A model generated the notes under the pieces. It ran no database searches. It was not told the DNA's origin and was given only the letters and a program-made list of their open reading frames with translations. This document shows, in pieces, positions 44,155-50,668 of a stretch of DNA of 64,000 bases; position 1 is the first letter of the stretch; each line of letters starts with the position of its first letter. The DNA lies in contig CAJTDX010000004.1 in the NCBI GenBank assembly GCA_910575155.1, positions 124,001 through 188,000 of the forward strand. The letters run 5' to 3'. A program made the position numbers and the translations under genes. The stretch is from Lachnospiraceae bacterium (GTDB lineage Bacteria; Bacillota; Clostridia; Lachnospirales; Lachnospiraceae).

Positions 44155-44173
44155 GCGCTGAGCACAATTGCGA
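44155..44173 (-). repeat. 19-nt fragment of the dispersed repeat before the maturase start
   Basis: GCGCTGAGCACAATTGCGA is identical to the inner part of copy B (and reverse-complementary to copies A and C). It lies a few bases upstream of the maturase ribosome binding site. Confidence 0.55.
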
Positions 44174-44194
44174 GTAGAAAGAGAGGAATCAGCA

Positions 44195-45553
44195 GTGGTT
44201 CACCAGTATAAGAACAACGGCTACAACATTGTTTTAGATGTCAACAGCGGCGCGGTGCATGTGGTGGATGATGTTACTTATGAAGTAATTTCCCTGTTTG
44301 AGTCAGGTACCAGAGAAGAGATCACAGAACGTTTGAAGGAAACTTATTCAGAGACAGAGATTGCGGAGAGTTACGGGGAAATACAGGAACTTGTGGCAAA
44401 TGGCGAGCTGTTTACGGAGGATGAGTATCAGGATTATATTGAGCAGTTTCAGACAAGGCCCACAGTGGTAAAGGCATTATGTCTGCATATTGCCCATGAC
44501 TGTAATCTCAAGTGCCGCTATTGTTTTGCGGAAGAAGGAGAGTACCATGGGAAAAGGGCATTGATGTCTTTTGAGACCGGAAAAGCGGCTCTGGATTTTC
44601 TGATTGCAAATTCCGGGAACCGCCGTAATCTGGAAGTGGATTTTTTTGGCGGCGAGCCTCTGATGAACTTTGACGTGGTAAAAAAACTGGTATCATACGG
44701 CAGAGAGCAGGAGAAAATTCACAATAAGAAGTTCCGGTTTACGCTTACTACAAACGGAGTGCTTTTGGATGACGAAGCTATGGAGTTTGCCAATCAGGAA
44801 ATGGCGAACGTGGTATTAAGCATCGACGGGCGCAAGGAAGTGCATGACAGGATGCGTCCGTTCCCGAAGGGAGCAGGCAGCTATGATCTGATTGTGCCGA
44901 AGTTTCAGAAGCTTGCAGACAGCCGGAATCAGGAACGGTATTATGTGAGAGGAACGTTCACCCGCTATAATCCGGATTTTTCGCAGGATGTTCTGCATCT
45001 TGCAGATTTGGGATTCAAACAGATTTCTGTAGAGCCTGTGGTGGCGCAGCCGGAAGATGATTATGCTTTGAGGGAAGAGGATCTTCCCGGGCTGTTCGAA
45101 GAATATGACAGGCTCGCGGTGGAACTCATTCGACGCCGCAGAGAGGGAAAAGATTTTAATTTCTTTCATTTTATGATTGATTTAGAAGGCGGTCCCTGTG
45201 TGGCAAAACGGTTATCCGGCTGCGGCTCGGGCACGGAGTATCTGGCGGTGACGCCCTGGGGTGATTTTTATCCCTGTCATCAGTTTGTGGGAAACGAAGC
45301 GTTTTTGATGGGAAATGTCAAAGACGGTATTTGGAATGAAAAACTGCAGAACGAATTTAAGTCCTGTAATGTTTACGCCAAGGAAAAATGCCGGGATTGT
45401 TTCGCAAGATTTTACTGCAGCGGCGGCTGTGCGGCCAATTCCTATAATTTTCATGGAAGTATTACAGACGCCTATGATCTGGGGTGCCGGCTTCAGAAGA
45501 AGCGAATCGAATGCGCGATTATGATCCAGGCGGCGTTAGCGGAGGAAAGCTGA
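44195..45553 (+). CDS. SCIFF peptide maturase (radical SAM/SPASM thioether-forming enzyme)
   Basis: A 452-residue radical SAM enzyme that modifies the precursor encoded just upstream. Order: N-terminal peptide-recognition (RRE-like) part starting VHQYKNNGYNIVLDVN, the radical SAM cluster CNLKCRYCFA at about residues 105-113, FFGGEPLMNFDVV, and a C-terminal SPASM domain with cysteines GSGTEYLAVTPWGDFYPCH, CRDCFARFYCSGGCAAN. SAM is cleaved to start thioether cross-linking. I start at GTG 44195 behind AGAGAGGAATC, giving the family's usual (M)VHQYKNN; the reading frame extends to a TTG at 44168 inside a repeat fragment. Confidence 0.93.
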   Translation: MVHQYKNNGYNIVLDVNSGAVHVVDDVTYEVISLFESGTREEITERLKETYSETEIAESYGEIQELVANGELFTEDEYQDYIEQFQTRPTVVKALCLHIAHDCNLKCRYCFAEEGEYHGKRALMSFETGKAALDFLIANSGNRRNLEVDFFGGEPLMNFDVVKKLVSYGREQEKIHNKKFRFTLTTNGVLLDDEAMEFANQEMANVVLSIDGRKEVHDRMRPFPKGAGSYDLIVPKFQKLADSRNQERYYVRGTFTRYNPDFSQDVLHLADLGFKQISVEPVVAQPEDDYALREEDLPGLFEEYDRLAVELIRRRREGKDFNFFHFMIDLEGGPCVAKRLSGCGSGTEYLAVTPWGDFYPCHQFVGNEAFLMGNVKDGIWNEKLQNEFKSCNVYAKEKCRDCFARFYCSGGCAANSYNFHGSITDAYDLGCRLQKKRIECAIMIQAALAEES

Positions 45554-47808: not shown

Positions 47809-47992
47809 GAACAAAGTGGGCATGCCCACTTCAACTCCCCTACCCCCTCAATCATGAGGGGCCTGGACACTTTGCGCGCTGAGCACAATTGCGAAGCAAT
47901 ATTTTACCTCTTGTGCGAGTGCGCATATTTCTTTTCCGGCGCAGTGCGATCATTGTTTTTTATTTTACAGGGAATCCGAAGGAATTTCCTAA
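47809..47992 (-). repeat. Dispersed structured repeat, copy B (full length, reverse orientation)
   Basis: Nearly the exact reverse complement of copy A, including the 18-bp palindrome AAGTGGGCATGCCCACTT, the CCCCTCA hairpin, GAGCACAATTGCGAAGC and the left hairpin. It starts 7 bp after the secDF stop codon. Confidence 0.9.
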
Positions 47993-48048: not shown

Positions 48049-48767
48049 TTATTTGTAAATTACAACCTGGTCGCCGGGATGGATTACGGCGCCTCCCTGT
48101 GGAATGATATTTTCATCGCCCCGCTTAATCAGGGCAATCAAGATATTCTGGGGAAGGTTTAATTCTGCGATGGAAGAATTGCACCAGTCGTGATCAGGCT
48201 CAATCTGGATTTCTTTTAATTTTCCATCGTTTTCACTGTGGTATGCGGGAACGCTTAAAATGATTGTATCGCCAGTCAGAATCCTGGTATTTCCTCGCGG
48301 AATCAGCGTGTCTTTGTCGCGTTTGATCATAAGCGCCAGAGAGCCGGTGGGAAAGTTCAAAGTATGGAAAAAACGGAAGAGGAGTCTGTCGAGCTTAAAA
48401 CAGCGCCGATGAGAAAGCTTTCTGCGAAGGAAAAATGAAGAACCTGATTGCAGAACAGGCAGGTCAGCAGCGCGGTGACGATAACGCCCAGGGTGGACAG
48501 CAGCACAGATTTTACCGCTACGGGGCGCGCAGTCTGCCATTTCGTTCCAAATCCGCCGTAGAACATGATAAAAATTAATGCAATCGTACAGAGCTGTTCT
48601 GTGATCAGGTAGTTGTTGAAGGAGATTTTAAATAGTCCGTCAGAACCGAATATCATACCAAGAGCCATGAAGCACAGAAGTGCGGGCATTCCGAATTTGC
48701 TGGAAAAACGATTTGCTATGATACAGGAGAGGATGACGGCACAGCATAAGAGAAGCATAATAGCCAT
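48049..48767 (-). pseudogene. Internally deleted, frameshifted cation/proton antiporter (CvrA/NhaP2 type)
   Basis: The first part (from ATG 48767) reads MAIMLLLCCAVILSCIIANR with transmembrane helices up to GAVLSSTDSSSVFS, the CPA1/CPA2 antiporter N-terminus. The frame then breaks; in another frame the C-terminal ligand-binding TrkA_C/RCK_C domain follows (LNFPTGSLALMIKRDKDTL, ending GAVIHPGDQVVIYK). An intact protein needs about 250 more residues covering helices 5-12. The two pieces abut near 48365, so a deletion with a frameshift destroyed the gene. It would have exported K+ or Na+ against protons. Confidence 0.85.
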
Positions 48768-48899
48768 AACCTTGCGTCCTTTCTGTATAAAACTGAATGG
48801 TGAGTAGATATCATAAACGCTGCGCAGGGAAAAGTCAAATTCAAGCGCTTTTTCATTCATAGTTCAATGAAAAACGCAGAATCAAATATGCACACGGAC

Positions 48900-49008
48900 A
48901 AAAAGAGACTGCTGCATGAAAGAATTACACGCAGGATATTAAAAAGAGGGGTTCGATATCAAAAGGTATCTCCTGTGCGTCAAGTCTTACTTGCGGCAGT
49001 CTCTTTTT
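48900..49008. other. Nested inverted repeat, possible structured RNA
   Basis: AAAAAGAGACTGC (48900-48912) and GCAGTCTCTTTTT (48996-49008) are perfect 13-bp complements enclosing 83 nt that contain ACGCA/TGCGT and GATA/TATC stems. Either strand could make a closed RNA ending in a T-run. It lies in the gap between the antiporter remnant and the membrane-protein pair. Confidence 0.5.
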
Positions 49009-49058: not shown

Positions 49059-49379
49059 TTAGGAACTACCGTCTTTGTGCAGAGCCTGTCGGACTACGCC
49101 TTTTGGATCATGAAACAGCAGCAGTGCAAGCCAGATGATCAGCCCCAATGCCGTTACGGAAAGGCCCAGGAAGAAATCATTGAGCATTTCTCCCGGCGCT
49201 GGCGTGAAATATTCCATTCCCAGTTCAGCGTAGGCAAAGACAGCGTCTGCTGTCCACATCAGTGCGGCGCCCCAGTACATCAGGCTGAGCGTGCCCAGTT
49301 TGATCTGGTTTTTACTGTCTTTGAAGTACCACAGGACAGTGGAAGAAACTGCTGCAAAAACAGCGGTCAGTAATGTCAT
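49059..49379 (-). CDS. Small membrane protein of unknown function (106 residues)
   Basis: A 106-residue protein with three hydrophobic segments: LLTAVFAAVSSTVLWYF, LSLMYWGAALMWTADAVFAY and FFLGLSVTALGLIIWLALLLF, and a Lys/Asp-rich tail. I do not recognise it. Its ATG overlaps the stop of the upstream membrane gene (ATGA-type overlap, four bases), so the two are translationally coupled and probably act together. Both are downstream of a riboswitch-like leader. Confidence 0.75.
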   Translation of the reverse strand: MTLLTAVFAAVSSTVLWYFKDSKNQIKLGTLSLMYWGAALMWTADAVFAYAELGMEYFTPAPGEMLNDFFLGLSVTALGLIIWLALLLFHDPKGVVRQALHKDGSS

Positions 49380-49789
49380 GACAATTCTCCCTGTTCCGTT
49401 TCCTGTTGGGAACGTTTTTCAATTACGTTTGATACTACAGCCATGATCCCCCATACTCCGGTGACCAATACTGCCATGGTAACGCCGACCGTGGACATTT
49501 CGTGCAGCATTTGAGCGGTTTCTCCGGCAGAATTTGCTGCGGATAAAAATGGAAACCACGGGGTTACTTCCCCATGCCAGAGGTGCTCAAAAGCAAGAAG
49601 CGCAGAGCCGCCCCAAAGCATATTGTTCAGCCATTTCAGTTTATGGGAAAAAGGAATCTTTTTGGATTCTGCTGTTTCCATGTTCAGACTGCCGGGCGCA
49701 GCGCTTTCTTTTTTCTCCTTTGCGGTTACTACCTTATGTACTACGGTTGTCACAACGGCTTCCGCAGCTGGAACTACAAAACATGCCAT
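49376..49789 (-). CDS. Membrane protein of unknown function (137 residues), partner of the next gene
   Basis: A 137-residue protein. The N-terminus (MACFVVPAAEAVVTTVVHKVV) is hydrophobic, followed by a Lys/Glu/Ser-rich loop, then two hydrophobic helices (MLWGGSALLAFEHLWHGE and VGVTMAVLVTGVWGIMAVVS) containing conserved-looking His-Glu pairs (FEHLWHGE, LHEMSTVG) that could bind a metal. No family is recognised. The ATG follows AAGGAGGATAAG. Expression is expected to be controlled by the structured leader upstream. Confidence 0.75.
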   Translation of the reverse strand: MACFVVPAAEAVVTTVVHKVVTAKEKKESAAPGSLNMETAESKKIPFSHKLKWLNNMLWGGSALLAFEHLWHGEVTPWFPFLSAANSAGETAQMLHEMSTVGVTMAVLVTGVWGIMAVVSNVIEKRSQQETEQGELS

Positions 49790-49835
49790 ATCTTATCCTC
49801 CTTTTTATGTTTGCGCGAATACAGAAAATGCGTAT

Positions 49836-49873
49836 AAAAAGCATACAATTTCCTTCAGGAAATCATATGCTTT
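49836..49873 (-). terminator. Terminator hairpin inside the leader of the membrane gene pair
   Basis: On the minus strand AAAGCATATGATTTCC pairs with GGAAATTGTATGCTTT (two wobble or mismatch positions) around TGAA and is followed by TTTTT. It lies about 45 nt before the start codon, as in attenuators. Confidence 0.75.
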
Positions 49874-49895
49874 CATTAGCAGCTATAAATGAAAC

Positions 49896-49984
49896 ATTCC
49901 GTGATTCGTGCAGACACTTCTGTGTGAACTGCCAGCTTCTTATCTGGCGTTTGCTTCCTTACTCCGCTGAAATATCCACGGAAT
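49896..49984 (-). promoter_or_regulatory. Unassigned riboswitch-like RNA domain (89 nt)
   Basis: The predicted +1 coincides with the start of ATTCCGTG, which pairs perfectly over 8 bp with CACGGAAT at the other end (49896-49903). Inside are a GCCAG/CTGGC hairpin and an ACAC-AGAA-GTGT hairpin, plus a 28-nt purine-rich single strand with GGAGTAAGGAAGCAAAC. A terminator follows 23 nt later. It does not match riboswitch classes I can recall (T-box, SAM, TPP, FMN, cobalamin, Mn, fluoride, c-di-GMP and others). Confidence 0.6.
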
Positions 49985-49990
49985 AATATT

Positions 49991-50019
49991 ATTATAACTT
50001 TGCCGGAATAAAATGTCAA
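49991..50019 (-). promoter_or_regulatory. Consensus SigA promoter of the membrane gene pair
   Basis: TTGACA (50019-50014), 17 bp, TATAAT (49996-49991): twelve of twelve consensus bases. The -35 overlaps the end of the DUF3842 gene, which lies upstream on the same strand. Confidence 0.85.
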
Positions 50020-50432
50020 TGTTTTGCGCTGGATTCTAAGTAGTTGAGGATGTGAGAGATTATATCATTCACAGAAATGCCGACGGCGCCCAGTACAATA
50101 TTATCGCATTGATTGATAGGAATGAGCAGACGCTTTGCCTGGCTCTGGCCGACAGCGGCAGCCATTTTGGGAGTCACCTCGCCAAAAAGTGAATCTGCAA
50201 TTACAATCCCGATAGGTCCGATAATAAGATCTGCTTTTCGGCAGCCCACAACCACGGCATTTTCACCGGTGGCGGCATGGTCGGCTCCGGCTTTCAGCAT
50301 ATTTGCGGTGGCAGTGGAATTTGTCCCTACTGCCGTTATGGAGAGTTTTGGATATACGTTTTTAATGGCAGATATGATTTGCTTTCCCAGTCCGCCGCCC
50401 TGTGCGTCAATAATTAAAATGTTCAAAGCCAA
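50016..50432 (-). CDS. DUF3842 family protein
   Basis: A 138-residue soluble protein of DUF3842, found in Clostridia. It begins NILIIDAQGGGLGKQIISAI with a glycine-rich loop like a nucleotide-binding fold, then AVGTNSTATANMLKAGADHAATGENA and GPIGIVIADSLFGEVTP. Function unknown. The ATG has AAAAAGGAGTATT upstream. It precedes the two membrane-protein genes but they have their own promoter. Confidence 0.85.
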   Translation of the reverse strand: MALNILIIDAQGGGLGKQIISAIKNVYPKLSITAVGTNSTATANMLKAGADHAATGENAVVVGCRKADLIIGPIGIVIADSLFGEVTPKMAAAVGQSQAKRLLIPINQCDNIVLGAVGISVNDIISHILNYLESSAKH

Positions 50433-50548: not shown

Positions 50549-50668
50549 ATATGCGCACTCGCACAAGAGGTAAAATATTGCTTTGCAATTGTGCTCGGCG
50601 CGCAAAGTGTCCAGGCCCCTCATGATTGAGGGGGTAGGGGAGTTGAAGTGGGCATGCCCACTTTGTTC
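50549..50668 (+). repeat. Dispersed structured repeat, copy C (right 120 bp)
   Basis: Identical to copy A from CGCACTCGCACAAGAGG to the palindrome AAGTGGGCATGCCCACTT, with one or two substitutions. The left arm is replaced by a different inverted repeat, TATAGGAAAGA/TCTTTCCTATA (50490-50500 and 50527-50537). This fills most of the 315-bp gap upstream of DUF3842. Confidence 0.88.

Follow-up and report, generated by a model that had tools for sequence, protein, structure and literature searches.

A GAA-hairpin leader RNA family upstream of nickel-linked genes in Clostridia, with DUF3842 as its candidate protein partner

In the window, i.e. the whole stretch of 64,000 nucleotides of Lachnospiraceae DNA analysed here, two membrane-protein genes are preceded by a leader that belongs to an RNA family with covarying helices, which matches no Rfam class. 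We consider it probable that this leader is a default-off attenuator of a Clostridia regulon for nickel and the nickel-pincer cofactor, operated by protein-dependent antitermination, with the DUF3842 protein as the most likely binder. The RNA family, its covariation, its two alternative folds, its association with genes and its co-occurrence with DUF3842 are direct observations. If the reading is true, DUF3842 and a widespread pair of membrane proteins would gain a function, a nickel regulon of gut Clostridia would be controlled at transcript elongation, and a new and testable code of RNA-protein recognition would be at hand. In the literature searched, whose scope left subscription journals mostly outside, no mention of DUF3842 was found, and by title and abstract none of the matches listed described a leader RNA for nickel uptake or the pincer cofactor.

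The window leader and its RNA family

All elements of the locus lie on the minus strand, with the DUF3842 gene directly 5' of the leader:

50016..50426, minus strand: DUF3842 (PF12953) gene, Pfam E value 3.1e-49, from a longer open reading frame starting at 50432
49991..50019, minus strand: SigA-type promoter TTGACA-17-TATAAT, 12/12 consensus matches
49896..49984, minus strand: region within an 8-bp complement (49984-49977/49903-49896), whose 5' part, 49984-49949, is an insert
49931..49948, minus strand: hairpin H1, arms GCCAG/CUGGC, loop AUAAGAAG (covariation, loop census)
49914..49925, minus strand: hairpin H2, arms ACAC/GUGU, loop AGAA (covariation, loop census)
49868..49881, minus strand: hairpin H3, the antiterminator, arms UGCU/AGCA, loop AAUGAA (covariation)
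49836..49874, minus strand: intrinsic terminator, 17 pairs, loop UGAA, U run (folding, covariation)
49797..49802, minus strand: ribosome binding site AGGAGG (sequence), 5' of the ATG at 49789
49376..49789, minus strand: 137-aa membrane protein family (MACF...), without assignment in Pfam or NCBIfam
49059..49379, minus strand: 106-aa membrane protein (MTLL...), without assignment in Pfam or NCBIfam; overlaps the end of the 137-aa gene

Much of this layout had been read by the initial annotation, and its perfect SigA promoter, its strong terminator hairpin and its ribosome binding site before the two uncharacterised membrane proteins were all recovered. The two internal hairpins it described are present as well and are conserved as the GAA-loop hairpins H1 and H2; the conserved third GAA hairpin, H3, was missed in its list. 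The terminator takes as its 5' arm the 3' arm of H3, a strand thus common to both structures, and the proposed transcription-attenuating layout is borne out by the conserved, covarying leader and terminator. Less remains of the ligand-binding junction. It had been described as an 89-nt junction closed by an 8-bp stem, and the complement itself, ATTCCGTG/CACGGAAT (49984-49977 with 49903-49896), does exist. One of its arms is carried by the insert between promoter and H1, which is absent from L033 and from the sister species L002, where the hairpin pair lies directly 3' of the promoter, and which differs in L031; a conserved junction was therefore not found. The purine-rich single strand described with it is not conserved in the sister species either, and we regard a ligand-binding junction made of this stem and strand as doubtful or wrong.

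In folding calculations the 196-nt leader was more stable than 200 of 200 shuffles (z -4.8), with H1 and the terminator present and H2 not formed. The unconstrained single-sequence fold of the window copy reached -45.9 kcal/mol; here both H1 and H2 are absent and a local 5' hairpin replaces the 8-bp stem. Forcing H1, H2 and the terminator gave -44.9 kcal/mol, and the 8-bp stem returned, while forcing H1, H2 and H3 gave -40.9 kcal/mol.

The earlier suggestion that no known class fits agrees with the Rfam searches, as no family matched at gathering score anywhere in the 64-kb window. A low-threshold scan of the window leader gave two weak, chance-like matches, and that of the leader at locus L090 chance-level matches only. 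Across 40 related loci nothing was found at the leader, and elsewhere one cobalamin riboswitch and three tRNAs were detected. The cobalamin riboswitch, at locus L108 (3338-3567), lies 3' of the 137/106-aa genes. At L090 (about 2340-2485), two stretches on either side of the terminator, the first of them in the linker, are complementary (TGTGCAGCAATC/GATTGCTGCACA), possibly a second folding layer.

The pattern shared by the leaders consists of H1 with a loop NNGAA closed by C-G, H2 with a loop NGAA, a variable linker and a GAA hairpin H3 that overlaps the terminator. A covariance model, R1, was built from 22 sequences including the window copy, which as a training sequence scores 82.4 bits. The alignment A2, fitted to R1, holds 55 leaders from the 55 loci given, with duplicates and weaker loci omitted and with the 22 sequences used to train R1, including the window copy, retained. 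In A2, 26 of the 28 pairs showed changes on both sides and 93.2% of cells pair; thus the covariation looked for in homologous leaders was found. The covariation score was 0.637, compared to 0.286 +- 0.011 in shuffled and at most 0.185 in slid controls. Changes on both sides were seen in all 6 modelled pairs of H1 and all 4 core pairs of H2. For H3 the score was 0.491 (shuffled 0.342 +- 0.018, slid at most 0.159), and 37 of its cells were doubly changed compared to 14.5 in shuffles; the number of doubly changed H3 pairs, 4 of 7, was not above that of the shuffles (3.8). Because the terminator also holds the 3' arm of H3, the signals of these two elements are not independent.

A GAA loop end was found in 51 of 55 H1 and 46 of 55 H2 loops (AGAA in 32), and the three H3 loop columns carry G in 54, A in 52 and A in 55 of the 55 leaders. 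By reading of the alignments A1 and A2, the invariant and near-invariant columns fall into hairpins and terminator, and no ligand-binding core conserved outside the hairpin loops was found in them; linkers are variable and some copies lack H2. At 29 of 79 loci the 137-aa gene is preceded by two or more GAA hairpins, where dinucleotide shuffles predict 0.1. In 44 of the 55 leaders a promoter with at least 9/12 matches is found no more than 60 nt from the model start, and in 34 of these the -10 element ends 4-9 nt before that start. As a control, regions another 300 nt upstream were scanned where present, and three promoters qualified. In the window copy the 5' insert places the promoter beyond the 60-nt limit.

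Genes under the leader

Of 200 genomes from the same bacterial family, 30 carry the 137-aa gene, and 382 relatives were obtained among 403 pattern matches in a species collection. The best 80 of these 382 were retained (L032, a copy of L002, was omitted from this 80-locus set), and the best 80 loci minus one duplicate are the 79 genomes used here. A search of the PDB by sequence gave no hit for the 137-aa family. Among 110 loci of the family, the 106-aa gene accompanies it in 56, LarC in 42, LarB in 40, DUF3842 in 17 and a LarE-like gene in 11. In the 200-genome sample (G000-G199), 28 of the 30 genomes carrying the 137-aa gene also have LarC, compared to 89 of the 170 others (p 1e-5).

At an E value of 0.001, R1 matched in 40 of 397 genomes of the family and 15 of 398 of the phylum. 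In the family sample, accepted leaders come from 30 genomes, namely all those with a match of at least 37 bits save G138, which was left out for its unrelated next genes (37.5 bits, DUF3842 absent; if included, DUF3842 would be present in 30/31). One accepted genome, G743, scored 37.0 bits in one search and 55.2 in another. Weak matches in whole genomes, of about 28-36 bits, are mostly chance terminators; the nine genomes at 29-36 bits were scored as leader-negative, including G173, whose match before an ECF-S gene looks genuine.

The first genes under the 30 accepted leaders were the 137/106-aa pair in eight cases and LarE/LarB arrangements in 11: LarE then LarB in six, LarB then CbiM in three, LarB with FecCD in one and a fragment followed by LarB in one. 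Further targets were SBP_bac_5 (NikA-like) in four, ECF-S in four, FecCD in one and Peripla_BP_2 in one; in the last case an IS66-like insertion, so labelled by resemblance, precedes the 106-aa gene (G716, L139/L190). Families were checked with HMMs on representatives and the remaining genes assigned by resemblance. As judged from these families, most targets belong to the synthesis of the nickel-pincer cofactor and, likely, to the uptake of nickel. The SBP_bac_5 proteins score well below the NikA model cut-offs, so their nickel specificity is putative, and the ECF-S targets may have a nickel link. This bears on the ion or small metabolite that had been suggested as ligand: the link to an ion is supported by the nickel-cofactor genes beside many relatives, and the repeated hairpin loops fit a bound protein more readily than a small-molecule aptamer.

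The user of the pincer cofactor was considered separately. A strong LarA (E < 1e-20; counts from the LarC genomes tested) is rare both with the 137-aa gene (1/23) and without it (2/14), and occurred in one of seven further LarC genomes. A simple substitution of LarA by the 137/106-aa pair is therefore not supported. Most tested LarC genomes thus lack a strong LarA, and the pair is one candidate for the cofactor user there. In genomes without detected LarC, a strong LarA was present in 11 of 21 with DUF3842 (G735, G733, G063, G048, G015, G666, G708, G119, G114, G651, G198) and in none of 17 without it, the latter being those that happened to be listed (p 3e-4). In some of these LarC-less LarA/DUF3842 genomes, an ECF-S gene and one resembling uridine kinase lie close to DUF3842, perhaps for the uptake of a cofactor precursor.

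DUF3842 co-occurrence, proposed mechanism and alternatives

DUF3842 is present in 94 of the 397 family genomes: in all 30 with an accepted leader and in 64 of the 367 others (p 3e-21, a value which, like the other co-occurrence p values, is weakened by the relatedness of the genomes). In 20 of the 30 it lies directly upstream on the same strand, at a distance of 24-373 nt and before several kinds of target; gene adjacency by itself could explain part of the co-occurrence. In the 200-genome sample the 137-aa gene occurs in 30 genomes, of which the four with an accepted leader are exactly the four with DUF3842. The same was seen in the 79 genomes, which all carry the 137-aa gene and 30 of which have DUF3842: at least two GAA hairpins precede this gene in 26 of 30 with DUF3842 versus 3 of 49 without (p 1.5e-13), and an R1 match of at least 40 bits was found in 21/30 versus 3/49. 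Three of the four DUF3842 genomes that fail the two-hairpin rule (L089, L102, L104) have one GAA hairpin. On the 137-aa protein tree, 18 changes were counted for the leader label and 17 for DUF3842. A tree-based test had six supported independent pairs, which agreed in 3.6 on average with none opposed, and was not significant (median p 0.125).

The association has exceptions on both sides. Of the phylum genomes that reach 40 bits (G000, G263, G366, G440, G266), all except G366 have DUF3842. This genome, rated 96% complete (L062), together with L098 and L108 has a leader without DUF3842; the three are MAGs of 2.4, 1.5 and 1.5 Mb, respectively. G230, without DUF3842, has a leader-like match of 33 bits before a Peripla_BP_2 gene (L125), and L071 and L093, also without it, have R1 matches of 29-31 bits and no GAA hairpin by the rule. 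Conversely, 64 family genomes have DUF3842 and no accepted leader. In 40 of these, examined near DUF3842, R1 gave a single match of more than 40 bits and six others at 24-36 bits, and in about nine GAA hairpins were seen by eye just 3' of DUF3842, with none in the others. A GAA hairpin lies at most 330 nt downstream of 33 of 65 parsed DUF3842 genes, a set biased by its inclusion of loci selected for the leader. On plasmids, two partial DUF3842 matches were found among 72,556 records.

These exceptions also bear on whether DUF3842 is merely a co-travelling protein of nickel metabolism, with the leader read by another protein. Leaders without DUF3842 would be expected in that case, and its invariant Gly, Asn and Cys residues and glycine-rich start could equally be those of an enzyme. 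As DUF3842 remains predictive of the leader among genomes that share the downstream gene, we consider this quite improbable.

Under protein-dependent antitermination with DUF3842 as the binder, the nascent RNA would form the GAA-loop hairpins H1 and H2 and then either H3 or the terminator. A protein recognizing GAA loops, most likely DUF3842, would bind H1/H2 and stabilise H3, and with H3 held the polymerase would read through into the nickel genes. The default state is probably off, because in the window copy the fold with the terminator has the lower energy (-45.9 vs -40.9 kcal/mol). In some leaders near DUF3842 (e.g. L242, L235, L221), the H3 loop can by eye pair with the 3' strand of the terminator, which fits a loop-binding factor. 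As the genes switched on would be those of uptake and cofactor synthesis, nickel shortage is suggested as the probable signal; it may instead be the cofactor imported from outside. The pincer cofactor made by LarB/C/E is weakened as the signal, since LarC was not detected in five of the 30 accepted leader genomes (G699, G198, G678, G114, G175, rated 93-100% complete), where such a signal is unlikely. We infer protein binding, DUF3842 as binder, the direction of control and nickel as signal from these patterns. More tentatively, DUF3842 might be a nickel-responsive RNA-binding antiterminator, and with it a new family of regulators reading GAA-loop hairpins, for nickel import, pincer-cofactor synthesis and perhaps ECF-S salvage of the cofactor or a precursor across Clostridia.

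A true riboswitch, in which H1-H2-H3 would be a protein-free aptamer for Ni2+ or another small nickel-linked ligand, shares several of these observations, i.e. the attenuator layout, the lack of an Rfam class, the nickel-linked genes and a covarying structure upstream of related genes. We regard it as unlikely. Sequence conservation is concentrated in the hairpin loops, the linkers vary and H2 is missing in some copies; these features point to a protein rather than to a small-molecule aptamer, and repeated similar loops suit a multimeric protein. The tight co-occurrence with DUF3842 also speaks against a protein-free switch. The NiCo (czcD) riboswitch, known from a nickel/cobalt context, is a four-way junction over efflux genes; here the genes are those of uptake and cofactor synthesis, and Rfam gave no match to it in the window or the 40 related loci. 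CsrA, whose motif is GGA in loops, was rejected as a binder since the base preceding GAA varies.

Known antitermination systems are instructive for comparison. For a small metal-dependent antiterminator, the nearest logic by analogy would be that of HutP: in the hut system of Bacillus subtilis, a small regulator gene sits upstream of its own terminator target, and HutP is metal-dependent. Its antitermination requires Mg2+ as the metal ion together with L-histidine (PMC7430163). The HutP hexamer recognises NAG repeats, whereas the leader family has GAA loops, and DUF3842 has no significant solved relative in a PDB sequence search (best E value 0.8). The pan motif, with tandem simple stems 5' of pantothenate genes and proposed to bind a dimeric protein (PMC2864571), differs in its bulged A residues and in its genes.

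The leader works most like those controlled by ANTAR-domain antiterminators. ANTAR target RNAs (the eut, nasF and amiE leaders) have tandem small hairpins with conserved loop letters, the last of which overlaps the terminator, and the 3' arm of H3 is shared in just this way. Shared with the eut element, AGCAANGRRGCUY (PMC3369931), are the tandem hairpins, the terminator overlap and a G-A-A before the closing G. Still, the family fails ANTAR membership by its loop type and by its occurrence in ANTAR-less genomes. Instead of A1/G4 hexaloops in both hairpins, it has mostly GAA-ended loops of four or five nucleotides and very different linker lengths: by the model boundaries none of the 55 H1 loops is such a hexaloop and H2 has a tetraloop in 49 of 55 leaders, while some copies do have H3 hexaloops of A1/G4 type, the AAUGAA of the window included. 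Met172 of EutV may exclude smaller loops (PMC8934654). An ANTAR protein was found in 27 of 35 leader-match genomes and not found in eight, among them G263, G366 and G440 with leaders of 90-96 bits. An ANTAR protein as the reader of this leader is thus highly improbable.

Other features of the window

Some further elements were observed around the locus. At 48049-48860 lies a K+/H+ antiporter remnant, of which the N-terminal part and the TrkA_C end match and the middle is absent; the sister species L002 has a longer open frame at this locus. A long inverted repeat, AAAAAGAGACTGC...GCAGTCTCTTTTT, occupies 48900-49008 between the 106-aa gene and this remnant. The hairpin TGTGCGAGTGCGCATA occurs with similar flanks at 47912-47927 (plus strand) and 50550-50565 (minus strand), and the two copies are probably a small interspersed repeat. 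Finally, 44168-45553 encodes a radical SAM/SPASM protein with the look of a peptide maturase, whose PqqD match stays under the family cut-off.
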